From Bradyrhizobium arachidis (GTDB lineage Bacteria; Pseudomonadota; Alphaproteobacteria; Rhizobiales; Xanthobacteraceae): a stretch of 64,000 bases of DNA. This document shows, in pieces, positions 27,318-35,692 of the stretch (position 1 is the stretch's first letter; the number at the start of each line of letters is the position of its first letter). The notes under the pieces were generated by a model, which was given only the letters and a program-made list of their open reading frames with translations, was not told where the DNA came from and did not search any database. The position numbers and the translations under genes are program-made. Where the stretch lies: the NCBI RefSeq assembly GCF_024758505.1, contig NZ_CP077970.1, positions 6,262,001-6,326,000 on the forward strand, in the 5' to 3' direction.

Positions 27318-29594
27318 GTGCGCCAGATCATACCACCGCATTGGAAGGCCAGGTTCAGGAACTTCTTCCTGGATCTCGATGCGCGCATCGACTCCTCCCT
27401 GTTCTCCTCCGCCAAGGGTATCCGCGAGCTCTATGAGCGCTACTCGACCTTCATGGACCGCTTCTATGTCGGGCGGTGGAAGCGCTGGGTGTTCATCGAG
27501 CCGCTGTCGGAGGCTGCTACCCTCGGTCTCGGCGGACTGGTGCTGCTGCTGGCGCTCGCCATCCCCGCCTTCCGCGAGACGGCGGACGAGGACTGGCTGA
27601 AGAAATCCGACCTCGCGGTGAGCTTCCTCGACCGCTACGGCAACCCGATCGGCAGCCGCGGCATCAAGCACAACGACTCGATTCCGCTGGAAGATTTTCC
27701 GGACGTGCTGATCAAGGCGACGCTGGCGACCGAAGACCGCCGCTTCTACGACCATTTTGGCATCGACATCGCCGGCACGGCCCGCGCGCTCGTCACCAAC
27801 GCCCAGGCCGGCGGCGTCCGCCAGGGCGGCTCCTCGATCACGCAGCAGCTCGCCAAGAACCTGTTTCTCTCCAACGAGCGCACCATCGAGCGCAAGGTCA
27901 ACGAAGCCTTCCTGGCGGTCTGGCTGGAAACCCGGCTGACCAAGAACGAGATCCTGAAGCTGTATCTGGACCGCGCCTATATGGGCGGCGGCACCTTTGG
28001 CGTGGACGGTGCGGCGCATTTCTACTTCAACAAGTCGGCCCGCGACGTGACCCTATCGGAAGCCGCGATGCTGGCCGGCCTGTTCAAGGCCCCGACCAAA
28101 TACGCGCCCCACATCAACCTGCCCGCGGCGCGCGCCCGCGCCAACGTCGTGCTCGACAATCTGGTCGACGCCGGCTTCATGACCGAGGGCCAGGTGTTCG
28201 GCGCCCGCCGCAACCCCGCCTTCGCGGTCGACCGCCGCGACGAGGCCTCGCCGAACTACTATCTCGACTACGCATTCGACGAGATGCGCAAGCTGGTCGA
28301 CACCTTTCCGAAATCCTATACCGAGCGCGTCTTCGTGGTCCGCACCGCCATCGACATGAACGTGCAGAAGGCGGCGGAAGACGCGATCGAGAACCAGCTC
28401 CGCCAGTTCGGCCGCGATTATCACGCGACGCAAGCCGCGACCGTCGTCGGCGATCTCGACGGCGGCGTCCGCGCCATGGTCGGCGGCCGCGACTATGGCG
28501 CGAGCCAGTTCAACCGCGCGACCGACGCCTATCGCCAGCCCGGCTCCTCCTTCAAGCCCTATGTCTACACCACGGCGCTCCTCAACGGCTTCACGCCGAA
28601 TTCGAAGGTGGTCGACGGCCCGGTCTGTATCGGCAATTGGTGCCCGCAGAACTATGGCCATTCCTATTCCGGTTCCGTCACGCTGACGCAGGCGATCACC
28701 CGCTCGATCAACGTCGTGCCCGTGAAGCTGTCGATCGCGATCGGCGGCAAGGACGGCCCGAAGGCCGGCCGCGCCAAGATCGTCGAGGTTGCGCGCCGCT
28801 TCGGTCTCAAGGCGCCGCTGCCCGACACGCCGTCGATGCCGATCGGCTCGGACGAAGTCACCGTGATCGAGCACGCGATTGCGTATGCGACCTTCCCCAA
28901 CCGGGGCCGGTCGGTGACCCCGCACTCGGTGCTGGAAGTGCGCACCGGCGCGGGCGACCTGGTCTGGCGCTGGGACCGCGACGGTCCGAAGCCCAAGCAG
29001 GCCATCCCGGCCAACATCGCCGCCGACATGGCGGGCATGATGAGCCACGTGGTCAGCGAAGGCACCGCGCGCCGCGCCGCGCTCGACGGCATCCCGACCG
29101 CCGGCAAGACCGGCACCACCAACGCCTATCGCGACGCCTGGTTCGTCGGTTACACCGGCAACTTCACCTGCGCGGTCTGGTACGGCAATGACGACTACTC
29201 GCCGACCAACCGCATGACCGGCGGCTCGCTGCCGGCGCAGACCTGGCACGACATCATGGTCGCCGCCCATCAGGGCGTCGAGGTCAGGGAAATTCCCGGC
29301 ATCGGCATGGGCACGAAGCTGCCGCCGCAGCCGGTGGCCAACGCGGCGGGTTTTGCGGCACCGAAGGTGCTGGAGACAAAACCCGGCCCGCCGCCCGTGC
29401 TGACCAAGCGCGGCGCCGACATTCTGGTGCGCGTCGAGAAGCTGCTCGACGATGCCGCCAAGACCGCGACCAAAACCACGTCTGACGATACAACGAAGCC
29501 GGCCAAGCCGGCGCCCACGTCGAGCGCGCTGGCCTTCCCGCAAAACTACGCGGCAGAAGACAATGCGAACTCCACCGCGCCGCGCAAGAACTGA
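27318..29594 (+). CDS. Class A penicillin-binding protein (glycosyltransferase 51 / transpeptidase)
   Basis: A 758-residue bifunctional murein synthase. A cytoplasmic N-terminus (about 70 residues) leads to one membrane anchor (ATLGLGGLVLLLALAIPAF). The glycosyltransferase 51 domain has catalytic Glu139 (ATEDRRFYDHFGID) and GGSSITQQLAKNL. The transpeptidase domain has the SxxK motif Ser410/Lys413 (QPGSSFKPY), a TRSIN motif and KTG at Lys597 (AGKTGTTNAYRDAWF). The C-terminal 100 residues are Pro/Ala/Lys-rich. Translation starts at GTG. It works in the inner membrane, polymerising and cross-linking peptidoglycan. Two DUF1214/DUF1254-type genes follow closely. Confidence 0.93.
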   Translation: MRQIIPPHWKARFRNFFLDLDARIDSSLFSSAKGIRELYERYSTFMDRFYVGRWKRWVFIEPLSEAATLGLGGLVLLLALAIPAFRETADEDWLKKSDLAVSFLDRYGNPIGSRGIKHNDSIPLEDFPDVLIKATLATEDRRFYDHFGIDIAGTARALVTNAQAGGVRQGGSSITQQLAKNLFLSNERTIERKVNEAFLAVWLETRLTKNEILKLYLDRAYMGGGTFGVDGAAHFYFNKSARDVTLSEAAMLAGLFKAPTKYAPHINLPAARARANVVLDNLVDAGFMTEGQVFGARRNPAFAVDRRDEASPNYYLDYAFDEMRKLVDTFPKSYTERVFVVRTAIDMNVQKAAEDAIENQLRQFGRDYHATQAATVVGDLDGGVRAMVGGRDYGASQFNRATDAYRQPGSSFKPYVYTTALLNGFTPNSKVVDGPVCIGNWCPQNYGHSYSGSVTLTQAITRSINVVPVKLSIAIGGKDGPKAGRAKIVEVARRFGLKAPLPDTPSMPIGSDEVTVIEHAIAYATFPNRGRSVTPHSVLEVRTGAGDLVWRWDRDGPKPKQAIPANIAADMAGMMSHVVSEGTARRAALDGIPTAGKTGTTNAYRDAWFVGYTGNFTCAVWYGNDDYSPTNRMTGGSLPAQTWHDIMVAAHQGVEVREIPGIGMGTKLPPQPVANAAGFAAPKVLETKPGPPPVLTKRGADILVRVEKLLDDAAKTATKTTSDDTTKPAKPAPTSSALAFPQNYAAEDNANSTAPRKN

Positions 29595-30771: not shown

Positions 30772-31536
30772 CTATCCGAGCAAACCTTTGAGACCGGCAT
30801 AGATCGAGCCGACCGCGGTCGCAGCCACGCCCGCCAGCGGACCGACGGTCTGCATGAGGTCCTGGATCAGCCGGGCGCGACGGCGCAACTGCTCCTCACC
30901 GACATGCTGTCCGAGCAGGCGCGCCACGCGGAAGGCGAACGCGTTCGGCTTGCCGCCCTGCGCAAGCACGCGCGGCAGAGTCTGGAAGACCAGCACGCCC
31001 AGGATATTGCCGGACACGAAGGCGAGCACGATGCTTGCCCCGTATTCCATCACCTCGCGCCATTCGATCCACACCTCCGGCAGGATCGGGACGCGATCGT
31101 GAATGCCGGTCACGGTCAGCATCGACAGGACACTGAGAACCGCGGCGCAGAATGCCAGCACCAGCGCGGCGATCGTCTGCACCCTGTGCAGGGGATAGGC
31201 CACGAAGCCGAACAACAGCGGAATGACGATCGACGCGATCCGGAGCGGAATCGGAGAGAGGTTGAAAGTGATGGTAACCAGGATATGTGCGGTCACCAGC
31301 AGCAATGCCGGAATGACGACGTAGAGCACCGCATGGGTCGCAAAGTATCGCAGCGGGTTGTTGTATCGCTCGAGCCGGACATTGACGCGGTCCAGGTCGC
31401 GCTGCAGCTTGTCGAGCTCGGCAACAATGCCGTCGATTTCCAGAAGCATCGGCCGCACCACGCGCAGATCGCGCGAGCAGTGCTTGCACACGATGGCCTC
31501 GTCCTTGATCGTTTCGGCGCAGAACGGACATTCCAT
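30772..31536 (-). CDS. Zinc-ribbon membrane protein, last gene of the CHAT operon
   Basis: A 254-residue protein. The N-terminal zinc ribbon has two Cys pairs (CPFC and CKHC in the first 20 residues). A short coiled coil follows (EIDGIVAELDKLQRDLDRVN), then about four membrane helices: AVLYVVIPALLLVTAHILV, IASIVIPLLFGFVAYPL, ALVLAFCAAVLSVLSMLTV and SIVLAFVSGNILGVLVF. A helical soluble tail ends the protein. It starts two bases after the previous zinc-ribbon gene and shares its N-terminal motif and the following CSRDL/CSRDI sequence, so the two ribbons are paralogous. Its role in the operon is unknown. Confidence 0.8.
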   Translation of the reverse strand: MECPFCAETIKDEAIVCKHCSRDLRVVRPMLLEIDGIVAELDKLQRDLDRVNVRLERYNNPLRYFATHAVLYVVIPALLLVTAHILVTITFNLSPIPLRIASIVIPLLFGFVAYPLHRVQTIAALVLAFCAAVLSVLSMLTVTGIHDRVPILPEVWIEWREVMEYGASIVLAFVSGNILGVLVFQTLPRVLAQGGKPNAFAFRVARLLGQHVGEEQLRRRARLIQDLMQTVGPLAGVAATAVGSIYAGLKGLLG

Positions 31537-31538
31537 CG

Positions 31539-31736
31539 CTAGCGCAGCTTCCTGCGGAGCCCGATCTTCTCGATCTCGCCGCGTGCCTGGCGCAGTTCCT
31601 CGATCAACAATTCCCGCTTGCGCAAGAGATCGTCACGCTCGGCAATCAGCGTCGCCGGAATTCCAATATCGCGCGAGCATGCAGAGCATACCATCGCGCC
31701 CTCGGCATTCTCGGCCTGGCAATACGGACACTTCAT
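31539..31736 (-). CDS. Small zinc-ribbon/coiled-coil protein, 65 aa
   Basis: The first 20 residues form a zinc ribbon with pairs CPYC and CSAC. The rest is a charged helix (LIAERDDLLRKRELLIEELR, then ARGEIEKIGLRRKLR) that should form a coiled coil. It has no membrane segment. Gaps are four bases upstream and two bases downstream, placing it in the middle of a tight operon. It resembles the N-terminus of the larger zinc-ribbon membrane protein next to it and may pair with it through the coiled coils. Function unknown. Confidence 0.8.
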   Translation of the reverse strand: MKCPYCQAENAEGAMVCSACSRDIGIPATLIAERDDLLRKRELLIEELRQARGEIEKIGLRRKLR

Positions 31737-31740
31737 TGCT

Positions 31741-32202
31741 TCACTTCGGGGCGACCTTCAAGGTGAAGCTCGCCGTGCCGGGGCGGCCGTCGCTGTCCTT
31801 GATGTCCACGCGCACCATGTATTCGCCGGGCGGCAGCTCGGCGTCCTGCATGTTGATGCCGTCGGCCTGAATGAACGGCTTGACCCGCGAGGTCAGATCG
31901 ACGTTCGGGGTGCGCAGGAAGATCACCTTGACCGATTCAGGATCGACCTTCGCGCCGCCGAAGGATTCGAACTTCAGTTGCAGCTTCATCGGCGAGCTCA
32001 CAGTGTTGCTCGGCGAGAGTACCTCCACTTTGGGCCCACGCAGGATGCCGCGCCGCTCGGCAGCGATCGCGCCCTTCGGCGGCGGCAGCTTGGCCTCCTC
32101 CTCCGTGATCAACGGTGCCGCCTGCACCGCTCCGGAGATCAACAAGCTCCCCGAGACCAAGCAGCTTGCCGCAACGGCACCAATGAAAATCTTTCCAATC
32201 AT
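31741..32202 (-). CDS. Small exported protein with predicted Ig-like beta-sandwich
   Basis: A 153-residue protein. The N-terminus (MIGKIFIGAVAASCLVSGSL, cleavage near GAVQAAP) is a signal peptide. The mature part has a short polar linker and a beta-rich domain of about 90 residues (VEVLSPSNTV, KLQLKFESFGG, VKVIFLRTP, LPPGEYMVRVDIKD, ASFTLKVAPK) with the spacing of an Ig/cadherin-like sandwich. The ATG is chosen because the upstream in-frame extension has no signal-peptide character. It follows the CHAT gene by 34 bp, so a periplasmic partnership with that protein is plausible but not shown. Confidence 0.78.
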   Translation of the reverse strand: MIGKIFIGAVAASCLVSGSLLISGAVQAAPLITEEEAKLPPPKGAIAAERRGILRGPKVEVLSPSNTVSSPMKLQLKFESFGGAKVDPESVKVIFLRTPNVDLTSRVKPFIQADGINMQDAELPPGEYMVRVDIKDSDGRPGTASFTLKVAPK

Positions 32203-32236
32203 ATTTCCACTCAATGCTTGCTTCCAAGGTCCAGAA

Positions 32237-35200
32237 CTAGCGGAGGCCACCATCGCCGATGATCGTGTATGGCGCCCAAAACAGCGGATGCGCATAAGTA
32301 AATTCGGTCTTGCCTTCGCCGTTGAGATAGCCGGGCCCATCGACCAGCGCCATCATCGCCTGACGCAGTGCCTCGCTTCGTCCCAGCTTAGAATCATCAG
32401 CCTGGCGCTTGAATAGGTCCGTGACCAATTGCCGCGCGGATTGCGAGTGCACAGACCAGTTCGTGACCAGCAATGCCCGCGTGCCAGCGTAGAAAAAGGC
32501 ACGGCCAAGCCCGGATGCGGCTTCAGCGCCGGCTCCGGCACCTGCGCCGGTGTTGCACGCCGACAGGATGACCCAGTCGGCGTCGAGCTTGAGGCCCAGG
32601 ATCTCTTCCATGGTCAGAAGTCCATCCCCCTGCTCACCGGTCACGGTCGGCGAGGACAGTGCGAGCGCCGGTTGGGTGAGGCCGTTGAGCTCTCCCGGCA
32701 CGAGCCCGTGGGTGGCGAAGGCCAAAATCTTGAACCCGGACAGGTTCATCGTCTTGACCGCGCCCTCCGTTGCGTTCTTGCCGAGGAACAGCACTTTGGA
32801 CGGATCCGCCTGCAAGGCGACGGCAATCGATTTGAGCTCGTCCGCAGTGTCGGGAAGCCGCGGCAGAAGCCCGAGCTCGGCGCTGTCCACGCCATCGAGC
32901 TTTGGACTGTTGCGCCGCTTCAACGGCATGCCGCGCATCACGTTGCTCGCGTCGGCGACCTGAACCTTGGTTTCCTGAACCTTGGCTTCCTGAACCTTGG
33001 CTTCTTCGTTTTGCGCTTCGGTCTGCTGATCCCTGTTGAAGTAGGGATCGCCGAACGCCACCAGTTCACCGCGACCGGGCTTGCCCGGCGGCAACTGCCG
33101 CAGCGTGCGTAGCGCCGCCGCCGACGGCACCGTCGTCACCGCATGCGTCCGCGCAAGCCACGGCACCTTGCGATAGCCGACGAACAGGGGATCGTCGTCC
33201 TGGGCGACCTCGGCCGGCGCCGTCGGCAACAGCGACAAGGGCAACAGTCCGAGCGCCCCGTTGGTGACGACGATCAGGTTCTTGGCCGGCTTCCAGCCAC
33301 CTTCCACGGGCTTCAGCAGCAACTCGTACAGCTCGTAGCCGAGCTTGAGATCGAACGGCGGAATGTCGGAGATCATCGCCGCTTGCGGCTCGAGCGCCTC
33401 ACGCAGCTTGCGGATCTTGGACTCGATGTCCCCGCTTTTTGCCTTGACGGCAGCAAAGGCGACGGGCCCTGATTTCGGCACCGCCCAGACGAAGCTGCCG
33501 TTCTGGCCGAAGTAGAACGACAACATGGCTTCGTCACCGCTTAGCGTTGCGCGGATTTCAGCAACGCTCGGCGGTCTCGGCGACACGAGGTCGGAATAGA
33601 CGGGGAATTTCTGCTTGATCTCCTGACGCGCCTTGTCGCGATCTGCGCGCAGGACGGAGATCGACGCCTGGATCTGCTGAACGCCCTTTTCGTCGCGCTC
33701 GGCCGAAGGAATCGCGAGCACGTTGTTCAGCGTACCGAGCTGGGCATTCACCTGCTTGGTGAGGTCCTGCTCCTTGCGAACCAGTTCGGCCAGCGCCGGG
33801 TCCTTTGCCGCAGCGCGTGCGCTCGAGGCGGCAAGGGCTTTCTGGACCGATTGGCCGCGGATGGCGTCTGCCAGGCCAAAAGTCTCCTCGCCGACCTCAC
33901 CCGACGTACCCTCGGCGCGCGCAAGCAACACAAAGTAGCTCTCGACGATGGACTGGAGCCGCTGGCTGCGCGCCGCCACCACCGTGGTGTTCTCGTCATC
34001 GGCGTTATCGCGCCCCGAGGCCATCATGATCGGGATGGCGGCCTTGAACTCGCGAATTGCCTCGGCATCGCGACGGGCCCGCATCAGGCCAATTGCCAGC
34101 GTTCCCCGCGCCGAAGCCGCGTCAAAATGATTCTCGCCGACCCGCCCGACCTGCTTCTTCACCAATTGCTCGGCGGCTGCGATACCGGCATCGAGCTGCC
34201 CGGCGGCGTAGAGCGACATGATGCGCGACGGATTGAGCTCGAAGACCTGGCGTCTCTGGGGTTCCCAGCTGGCGACCGACTTGTCGATCCTCGCAAAGAG
34301 GTCATTCGCTTCCGCGTTCTTCTTCTCGAGGTTCAGAATCCCGGCCAGCTGCGACAGCAATTGCACCGTCGATTGCGAGTCGTCCGGCACCCCGACGGTC
34401 TTGTTGATCTCCAGGGCGACGCGGCCCAACTGCTCGGCCTCTTCGTAGCGGCCCTCCTCGACCAGGATGCCCGCGAGCCCCATCACATAGCGCGGCGTGA
34501 CGGGGTTGTATTTGCCGGTGTCCTTCAAGCGCGACAGCAAGGCACGGCGGGCATCGACCTCGGCTTCGGCGAGCCGACCCTGCCGCGCCTTCATCCGTGC
34601 CTGGCTCAGCACGGCGCCATCGATCGCCTGGAGCATAATGGTTTCGGCGGGAGGATTCTCCCACTCCATGACACCTTTCAAGCCGGCGCGCTTGCGCTGC
34701 TCGGCAATGCGATAGGCCGCTTCTGCCTCGCTGAACTGACCTCGTGCCTCGAAGATGATGGCGCGGGTGCCTTCGAGCTCCGATTCCCAGTTCTGCCCCA
34801 ACTTTGCGTATGCATTGCGCCAATTCGGGAGACCGCTGGTGCGGGCTTCCTGGATCGCAGCCATAGTCCTGCGGAGATAGGCTTCGGCCTGCGCCACGTC
34901 GCCCATCATAATGAGGATGGAGGCCACCGCCCGGTTTGCACTGATTTGGTACCCCTTGGCTCCCGGCGCGTTGGACGTCTCCCGCAACAGCCTTTGCATG
35001 ACCTCAAGCGCGCGCTTGGGGTCGCCGGCCGCGGCATATTGCAGCGACAGCAATTGCAACAGCCGCCCCATCATATGGGCGCTGACGGCACCGCGACCGA
35101 CCTCGACGGCCTTGCTGGCATCGGCGATGGATTCGGCGAGCCGGCCGAGTTGAGACCGCGCGTTGGCGCGGTCGAAATAGAACTGCGCCAGGTCCCCGCG

Positions 35201-35692
35201 CGACTCCTTTCCCGTGGGCACCGAGTCGGCATCCGACTTCAACTCCGCGATCAGCTTCACGTCCGGCTTTTCGCTGTCGAGGATTGCCGTGATGTCGGCG
35301 ATGGTGCGCGGCGGCGCGATGAAGCCTTTTGGCAGCGCCGTGCCTGGGTCAAGTTTGGGCGCGGCCTCCTTCGGAACTTCAACGGCAACGTTGGCCCGTC
35401 CGTTCGCGGCATTGAGAGCAGCCATCACGCAGGCCCTGACCTGCGGTGTAGCCTTGGCGCGACAGGCTTCGATGTCGGCGCCGGCCTTGCGACCGCCGGC
35501 CGCCTGCATGCAGGCCTGCACGATCGGCCTGCCGACCGTCATCCGGCAATTCTCGCGCGCGGCCTCCATGGTGAGCGCACCTGCCGGACCCGCCGACCCC
35601 AGGAGCAAAGCGACCGCAATCAGCCTTTTGGCGCCCCGCAGCGAGAACGGATTGCAATGACTTTCGAATATGGCGGCGGTGTCCGTGCGCAT
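32237..35692 (-). CDS. Exported TPR-CHAT protein, caspase-like peptidase domain
   Basis: A 1151-residue protein. The signal peptide lies at about 20-40 (RLIAVALLLGSAGPAGALT). A small Cys-containing segment (CRMTV, CMQAAGG, CRAKATPQVRAC) comes next, then a long TPR superhelix (about 150-650). The C-terminal CHAT domain (about 830-1150) has both catalytic residues of clan CD peptidases: His995 (FATHG) and Cys1046 (LSACNTG). Three copies of a 15-bp repeat encode the KVQE-type linker inside it. CHAT domains are separase/caspase relatives that cleave proteins. The export signal places this one outside the cytoplasm, unlike CRISPR-associated CHAT proteases. It is the first gene of a four-gene unit. 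Confidence 0.88.
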   Translation of the reverse strand: MRTDTAAIFESHCNPFSLRGAKRLIAVALLLGSAGPAGALTMEAARENCRMTVGRPIVQACMQAAGGRKAGADIEACRAKATPQVRACVMAALNAANGRANVAVEVPKEAAPKLDPGTALPKGFIAPPRTIADITAILDSEKPDVKLIAELKSDADSVPTGKESRGDLAQFYFDRANARSQLGRLAESIADASKAVEVGRGAVSAHMMGRLLQLLSLQYAAAGDPKRALEVMQRLLRETSNAPGAKGYQISANRAVASILIMMGDVAQAEAYLRRTMAAIQEARTSGLPNWRNAYAKLGQNWESELEGTRAIIFEARGQFSEAEAAYRIAEQRKRAGLKGVMEWENPPAETIMLQAIDGAVLSQARMKARQGRLAEAEVDARRALLSRLKDTGKYNPVTPRYVMGLAGILVEEGRYEEAEQLGRVALEINKTVGVPDDSQSTVQLLSQLAGILNLEKKNAEANDLFARIDKSVASWEPQRRQVFELNPSRIMSLYAAGQLDAGIAAAEQLVKKQVGRVGENHFDAASARGTLAIGLMRARRDAEAIREFKAAIPIMMASGRDNADDENTTVVAARSQRLQSIVESYFVLLARAEGTSGEVGEETFGLADAIRGQSVQKALAASSARAAAKDPALAELVRKEQDLTKQVNAQLGTLNNVLAIPSAERDEKGVQQIQASISVLRADRDKARQEIKQKFPVYSDLVSPRPPSVAEIRATLSGDEAMLSFYFGQNGSFVWAVPKSGPVAFAAVKAKSGDIESKIRKLREALEPQAAMISDIPPFDLKLGYELYELLLKPVEGGWKPAKNLIVVTNGALGLLPLSLLPTAPAEVAQDDDPLFVGYRKVPWLARTHAVTTVPSAAALRTLRQLPPGKPGRGELVAFGDPYFNRDQQTEAQNEEAKVQEAKVQETKVQVADASNVMRGMPLKRRNSPKLDGVDSAELGLLPRLPDTADELKSIAVALQADPSKVLFLGKNATEGAVKTMNLSGFKILAFATHGLVPGELNGLTQPALALSSPTVTGEQGDGLLTMEEILGLKLDADWVILSACNTGAGAGAGAEAASGLGRAFFYAGTRALLVTNWSVHSQSARQLVTDLFKRQADDSKLGRSEALRQAMMALVDGPGYLNGEGKTEFTYAHPLFWAPYTIIGDGGLR
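32959..33003 (-). repeat. Three tandem 15-bp repeats within the CHAT gene
   Basis: The unit CCTGAACCTTGGCTT occurs three times in a row (the first copy differs at one base). It encodes the repeated KVQE(A/T) pentapeptide in an acidic linker of the CHAT domain. Copy number is in frame, so it may vary between strains without breaking the protein. Confidence 0.85.

Follow-up and report, generated by a model that had tools for sequence, protein, structure and literature searches.

A locus of Bradyrhizobium arachidis raises the question of what a CHAT peptidase-like protein with a predicted export signal does in an operon with a small beta-rich protein and two zinc-ribbon proteins, one of them in the membrane. 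The window (the whole stretch of DNA analysed, 64,000 nucleotides) comes from a genome of 9.43 Mb in one contig, whose closest named relatives are Bradyrhizobium. The unit runs on the minus strand from 35692 to 30772 in the order CHAT, BETA, ZNR65 and ZNTM, with gaps of 34, 4 and 2 bases. The initial annotation had described these four open reading frames and their spacing, and had placed an intact His995 and Cys1046 in the CHAT protein; all coordinates matched when they were re-derived, and both residues are present. The features are as follows.

32237..35692, minus strand: CHAT, a predicted exported protein of 1151 aa with Cys-hairpin, TPR and CHAT peptidase-like parts (open reading frame, Pfam, dN/dS)
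35576..35692, minus strand: signal-peptide-like N-terminus of CHAT, aa 1-39, ending PAGA (hydropathy heuristic)
35393..35575, minus strand: Cys-hairpin domain of CHAT, aa 40-100, with C49, C61, C77 and C88 (four Cys in 10/10 orthologues)
32252..33343, minus strand: CHAT domain, aa 784-1147 (Pfam)
32708..32710, minus strand: codon of the putative catalytic His995 (sequence, orthologue alignment)
32555..32557, minus strand: codon of the putative catalytic Cys1046 (sequence, orthologue alignment)
31741..32202, minus strand: BETA, a predicted exported Ig/PKD/CopC-like beta-sandwich of 153 aa, ATG at 32202 (AlphaFold, Foldseek, conservation)
32032..32091, minus strand: coil of BETA ahead of the sandwich, aa 38-57, candidate cleavage segment (model, conservation)
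31539..31736, minus strand: ZNR65, zinc ribbon and coiled coil, 65 aa (Pfam, ZNTM profile, dN/dS)
30772..31536, minus strand: ZNTM, zinc ribbon, long helix, four TM helices and charged C-terminal tail, 254 aa (Cys conservation, model, hydropathy)

All four genes are under purifying selection, with dN/dS of 0.07-0.30 in 20/20 gene-by-genome comparisons (0.08-0.10 for CHAT in five comparisons, 0.08-0.30 for ZNR65). Among the CHAT relatives of named genomes, the order CHAT-BETA-ZNR65-ZNTM is kept on one strand in 48 of 52 related loci, which is more than chance. The initial annotation had made its reading depend on the partners being retained beside CHAT genes elsewhere, and they are conserved across the genus and the family. 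The four exceptions are L052, where the contig stops after CHAT, L057, which holds a CHAT fragment only, and L053 and L056, where the genes after CHAT encode an unrelated small exported protein and then a CHASE2 cyclase (L053:1317-4143; L056:544-3367). The small exported protein of the latter two was considered as a BETA and rejected (hhalign probability 0.6%; hmmsearch E 0.16-0.25), and the CHASE2-cyclase receptor behind these CHAT relatives is a third possible output. CHAT paralogues that stand without the partners were also seen (L069-L071, L124, L125).

A survey of the genus, covering 242 genomes, gave ZNTM profile matches in 92, near full length in 83, partial or degenerate in 5 and weak in 4 (G371 and G490, with the zinc ribbon only, and G492 and G527, none of the four counted as carriers). 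CHAT is found at E <= 1e-200 in 80. CHAT lies 666-1306 bp upstream on the same strand in 78 of the 83 genomes with near-full-length ZNTM, and in one of the remaining five (G529) the contig stops within CHAT (L117). In G314 and G449 CHAT stands beside a partial ZNTM; hence ZNTM is present, in whole or in part, in all 80 genomes with CHAT. The family survey found ZNTM matches in 37 of 198 genomes, of which 11 belong to the genus and 26 to other genera; one of the latter (G683, zinc ribbon only) was set aside, and among the 25 counted, 17 have CHAT nearby, 2 have only a Peptidase_C14 (C14) caspase and 6 have neither (G543, G545, G568, G584, G640 and G694, the contigs of G640 and G694 being shorter than 6 kb). 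The four genes are a real co-inherited unit; the linkage is observed, and it is proteolysis and signalling that we infer. In one genome, the C-terminal end of ZNTM recurs at several scattered places downstream of a full operon (L154:6407-18138).

The CHAT domain (PF12770) is recognised by Pfam at E 1.3e-49 (169.7 bits against a cut-off of 24) and TPR_12 at E 3e-12. His995, Cys1046 and the four hairpin cysteines are identical in 10/10 aligned orthologues, and the motifs F[AS]TH[GA]L and LSACN occur in 94/94 CHAT domains above 600 bits, a set that includes near-copies and paralogues. A solved CHAT protein (8rot) aligns weakly to that of the window across the His/Cys motifs (E 0.05). The N-terminus is hydrophobic from residue 24, with a net charge of +3 ahead and a small-x-small site behind it, according to a heuristic; together with the conserved Cys pairs, this hydropathy profile predicts that the protein is exported. 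The CHAT protein thus keeps the signal-like N-terminus behind the export proposed in the initial annotation and has a conserved four-Cys hairpin as well; passage across the membrane stays a prediction from sequence. In L100, L104 and L105 an extra small exported protein lies between CHAT and BETA; it is built of two Cys-hairpin repeats that resemble CHAT's own N-terminal domain.

Loci without CHAT often carry another peptidase in its place. In the last four of the 83 genus genomes with near-full-length ZNTM, which lack CHAT (G216, G308, G378, G380), predicted exported C14 caspases stand beside the trio of partner genes (L068, L099, L098, L103), and in G491 a second copy of the trio, with ZNTM split, is followed by a predicted exported C14 (L112). 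Two genomes of other genera (G657 and G662) also have C14 beside the trio (L155, L156), as open frames with signal-like starts. In L098, L099 and L156 the divergent gene consists of the CHAT-type Cys-hairpin, then TPRs, and then C14 instead of CHAT. Of 11 CHAT-less loci, 7 have a C14 within 3 kb, against none of 37 CHAT loci (P-value = 4.5e-6, Fisher test), and at 5 kb the counts are 7 of 11 and 1 of 37 (P-value = 3.3e-5), in a locus set that is not random, since CHAT-less and divergent loci were sought out and L110 and L111 belong to one genome. In a separate set of loci from named genomes, 0/47 have C14 near CHAT. Chance adjacency was considered and rejected on the genus-survey linkage and this neighbour test. 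Some C14 neighbours could be there by chance, because the genomes hold many C14 matches (2-25 in each of 13 genomes searched, 25 in the window's own). In a ZNTM tree of 71 rows, from which rows with stops were left out, near-copies thinned and X letters dropped, and where the long branches L144 and L160 are unsure, the caspase label needs 4 changes, at least 2 of them forced by well-supported branches. C14 caspases stand in for CHAT in the same setting, and because a second clan CD family replaces the first there, the idea of an exported peptidase is strengthened. In 4 of the 11 CHAT-less loci (L140, L141, L144, L145) neither CHAT nor C14 is found within 5 kb, so the membrane pair may work without an adjoining peptidase or with one elsewhere. 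Elsewhere in the window's own genome, a tandem run of five C14 matches is present (C1:4734005-4742392).

CHAT and C14 are both clan CD His/Cys peptidases, and TPR-CHAT proteins are large binding platforms. A reading in which both domains are binding scaffolds instead of proteases, the module being a non-proteolytic receptor complex, can draw on this platform architecture and on the fact that the substrate is not known. It must also account for His/Cys motifs kept in all 94 CHAT domains and in 7/7 C14 domains checked, and we regard it as very unlikely.

If the peptidase cleaves a partner, BETA is the candidate substrate. Its family is conserved among relatives and its N-terminus is signal-like by the hydropathy heuristic. 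The AlphaFold model (mean pLDDT 83; 10-residue blocks above 90 across residues 71-150 and 79 for 51-70) is a beta-sandwich, for which Foldseek returned 5icu at E 2.7e-4 and PKD domains at 5.8e-4 to 1.2e-3. A CopC copper function was tried and rejected (Pfam CopC E 0.11, 13.9 bits against a cut-off of 23.3), the likeness being one of fold alone. Residues 38-57 form neither helix nor strand in the model (block pLDDT 68 for 41-50 and 79 for 51-60); within and at the end of this coil R51 is conserved in 41/46, R55 in 43/46 and P57 in 46/46, and the segment with the two arginines would be the candidate cleavage site. Orthocaspases cut after positively charged residues, according to the available text of PMC6426788. 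Against such a reading, the coil arginines may be conserved for other reasons, and the beta-sandwich is a generic fold.

The other two proteins share a zinc ribbon. ZNR65 has a Zn_Ribbon_1 match (Pfam E 1.2e-5) followed by a helical tail; it resembles the N-terminus of ZNTM, whose profile also picks up ZNR65 beside ZNTM. Four cysteines of ZNTM are invariant in 35/35 sequences. Its model (mean pLDDT 78) places helices at 27-59, 61-90, 96-117, 121-147 and 156-193, and hydropathy and model together point to four TM helices. A conserved loop, the candidate receptor site, contains Pro153 and Glu158-Trp159-Arg160-Glu161, of which EW(R) is retained in the TIR form described below. The model is of fair quality, and no PDB entry matched it below E 0.6.

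In L130, L131, L152 and L153 a recognisably homologous TM part carries a TIR domain (TIR_2 E 4e-10 to 8e-12) in place of the zinc ribbon, and with L169 and L170 added TIR_2 was above cut-off in 6/6 proteins tested (40.7-46.2 bits against a cut-off of 28). When the TM part was searched against a database, 17 proteins came back; 15 carry a TIR-family annotation, and the other two are short and start inside TIR-like sequence. The gene order is CHAT-BETA-TIR/TM in L131 and L169 and BETA-TIR/TM in L170, which comes from the same genome as L169 and lies about 0.6 kb from a convergent, predicted exported C14. Each of the four pairings of CHAT or C14 with zinc ribbon or TIR is therefore found, with C14-TIR in one locus only (L170), where the caspase is convergent and outside the operon, a point against giving this pairing much weight in our explanation. 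In L152:1790-2680 the TM part appears to interrupt the TIR fold, Pfam seeing the first half only and the second half lying, by eye, after the helices; with the TIR domain split in this way, both ends of this protein would be on one side of the membrane. The trans-membrane layout put forward in the initial annotation, with the zinc ribbons on the cytoplasmic face, gains the four-TM model of ZNTM and this relative with a seemingly split TIR fold, and in part remains a proposal: the zinc ribbon or TIR domain of the membrane protein probably faces the cell interior.

The Glu of the DPVRVEIE motif in the TIR variant, which we take to be the TIR catalytic residue, is nearly invariant, and this is only suggestive of NADase activity. 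It does fit a role in conflict or cell death, in which infection or envelope damage would activate the peptidase and the membrane protein would then kill or arrest the cell, the TIR form by depleting NAD and the zinc-ribbon form by making the membrane permeable or bringing in an effector. Bacterial conflict systems use caspase and TIR as effector domains, as the available text of PMC8195603 sets out. We consider this role unlikely. PADLOC 2.0 gave just two weak matches for the four proteins (E 0.027 and 0.028, both to the CHAT protein), which do not amount to a known anti-phage system, and for the variant proteins single-domain matches only. In part of the genus the unit occupies a shared chromosomal place with no obvious island, the flanking genes being common to L094, L114 and the window. 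Moreover, its exported peptidase would set the unit apart from the systems in the available text of PMC8195603 and PMC7159879. Within the window, the unit lies near a gene that resembles a penicillin-binding protein by eye (27318-29594).

The position of the locus in relatives bears on two further readings. Among the 25 genomes of other genera counted in the family survey, 12 have the locus at clpP-clpX, which looks like the ancestral site of the operon. The operon or its remains lie between clpP and clpX in L101, L132-L135, L141-L143, L145-L147, L150, L151 and L158 (judged by length, L047 and L049 seem to be the contigs of L146 and L151 again), with tig and lon adjoining in several. Within the genus, L101 is at this site, and L120 holds there a leftover C-terminal piece of ZNTM (L120:3073-3387); the window copy is not at clpP-clpX. 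It could be that the genes adjoin merely by descent from the clp locus, with no shared function, and a position conserved in many relatives would agree with this. In most of the Bradyrhizobium loci surveyed, the unit nevertheless stays together away from that site; it is kept or lost as a whole, and caspases adjoin the trio in most CHAT-less cases; we think this the least probable reading of all.

The link to clpP, clpX and lon could alternatively reflect proteostasis, with the exported peptidase removing or activating damaged envelope proteins, BETA serving as adaptor or inhibitor and ZNTM as anchor. Such envelope quality control would suit the clpP-clpX position in those 12 genomes and the ZNTM remnant in L120, as well as peptidoglycan-binding matches, weak and below the Pfam cut-off, that follow the caspase in L155 and L174. 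It leaves the alternation of zinc ribbon and TIR and the soluble ZNR65 unexplained, and the clp position may be historical only; we judge quality control improbable, to the same degree as the conflict role, and count both as serious alternatives. L174:7322-9612 (G112) is itself a BETA-caspase pair without ZNTM.

Outside the family, BETA relatives were detected in 8 of 318 genomes of a class draw and in one genome of another class (G1223), and CHAT or C14 is present in the fetched region in 7 of these 9 loci. L159 has CHAT, L160, L163 and L173 have C14, and L161, L164 and L166 have trypsin-C14 fusions but share a single genus, so that they are not independent cases; the L162 region is truncated, and in L165 neither CHAT nor C14 is seen. 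The trypsin-C14 fusions near these distant BETA relatives come with DUF4384.

The explanation we favour, with confidence about evenly balanced, is that the genes encode a trans-envelope signalling module centred on an exported clan CD peptidase, with BETA as candidate substrate and a four-helix transducer that has a cytoplasmic zinc-ribbon or TIR output. The TPR-CHAT protein would be exported and its Cys-hairpin disulphide-bonded in the periplasm, where its TPRs would bind a cue or a scaffold. CHAT would act on or with the exported Ig-like BETA, the Arg-containing coil being the candidate cut site, and BETA, whether cut, released or bound, would shift the state of ZNTM through its conserved EWR loop, predicted to be periplasmic. 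Inside the cell, the change would be read by the zinc ribbon and coiled coil of ZNTM, together with soluble ZNR65 as a candidate adaptor or brake; in relatives the reader would be a TIR domain, and elsewhere the peptidase would be a caspase.

In animal Toll signalling, extracellular proteolysis is followed by a TM receptor with a TIR domain inside, and the TIR variant may resemble this in outline. We hold only tentatively to a form of the trans-envelope module that is Toll-like in this sense, in which an exported caspase-type peptidase cuts a periplasmic Ig-like ligand and a four-helix receptor leads to a cytoplasmic TIR or zinc-ribbon output, the modules being exchanged freely. Homology to Toll is seen for TIR only; the unit differs in its four TM helices, its Ig-like partner and a peptidase of another clan.

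Other known systems share parts with the unit. The TPR-CHAT protein of Craspase (type III-E CRISPR) has TPR repeats and then a CHAT peptidase domain with a His/Cys dyad, as does the window protein, and Craspase is defined by its partner, the Cas7-11 effector, at a CRISPR locus. The window CHAT differs in being predicted exported and in its Ig-like and membrane partners: its neighbours are BETA, ZNR65 and ZNTM in 48/52 loci with no CRISPR partner seen beside CHAT, and no cas-like gene was found in the window's gene list, read by eye. The CHASE2 receptor cyclases of L053 and L056 (PF05226+PF00211) are similar in joining a CHAT relative, a small exported protein and a membrane receptor, but there the small protein is not BETA and the output is an adenylate/guanylate cyclase.

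The bacterial caspase homologues (metacaspases/orthocaspases, Peptidase_C14) covered by the available text of PMC3501461 are clan CD His/Cys proteins, some with N-terminal helices that could serve as export signals, and it is C14 that stands in for CHAT in this unit; that text names no BETA, zinc-ribbon or TIR membrane partners. It also describes a metacaspase-CHASE2 fusion, in which one polypeptide holds both parts and the peptidase is assigned to the cell interior, unlike the separate and predicted exported peptidase here. Conflict systems with caspase, TIR and EAD/Death-like domains are modular and swappable, and one GTPase class among them combines zinc ribbons with TM parts (available text of PMC8195603 and PMC7159879). 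The reuse of caspase and TIR domains in swappable modules is shared with our unit, whereas an exported peptidase with an Ig-like partner is absent from those texts, that of PMC8195603 lacking the terms 'signal peptide' and 'periplasm' and that of PMC7159879 'CHAT' and 'signal peptide'. No description of the gene set was found in the open-access papers searched. The parts are known families; what is judged new in kind is their combination, in which an exported peptidase and an Ig-like partner are joined by a four-helix membrane protein with a swappable domain, and the unit appears to be a route, so far undescribed, by which a protease signal would cross the cell envelope.

To our knowledge, bacterial caspase relatives are abundant and few have a known role. 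In one survey, location information is absent for 529 of 671 caspase-homologue sequences (available text of PMC3501461). Two clan CD families in one exported position, beside a swappable zinc-ribbon/TIR protein, would give exported caspases a partner, a candidate substrate and an output. The unit makes the role of exported bacterial caspases directly testable in a soil bacterium, and it is relevant to how pathways linking caspases with TIR domains arose.
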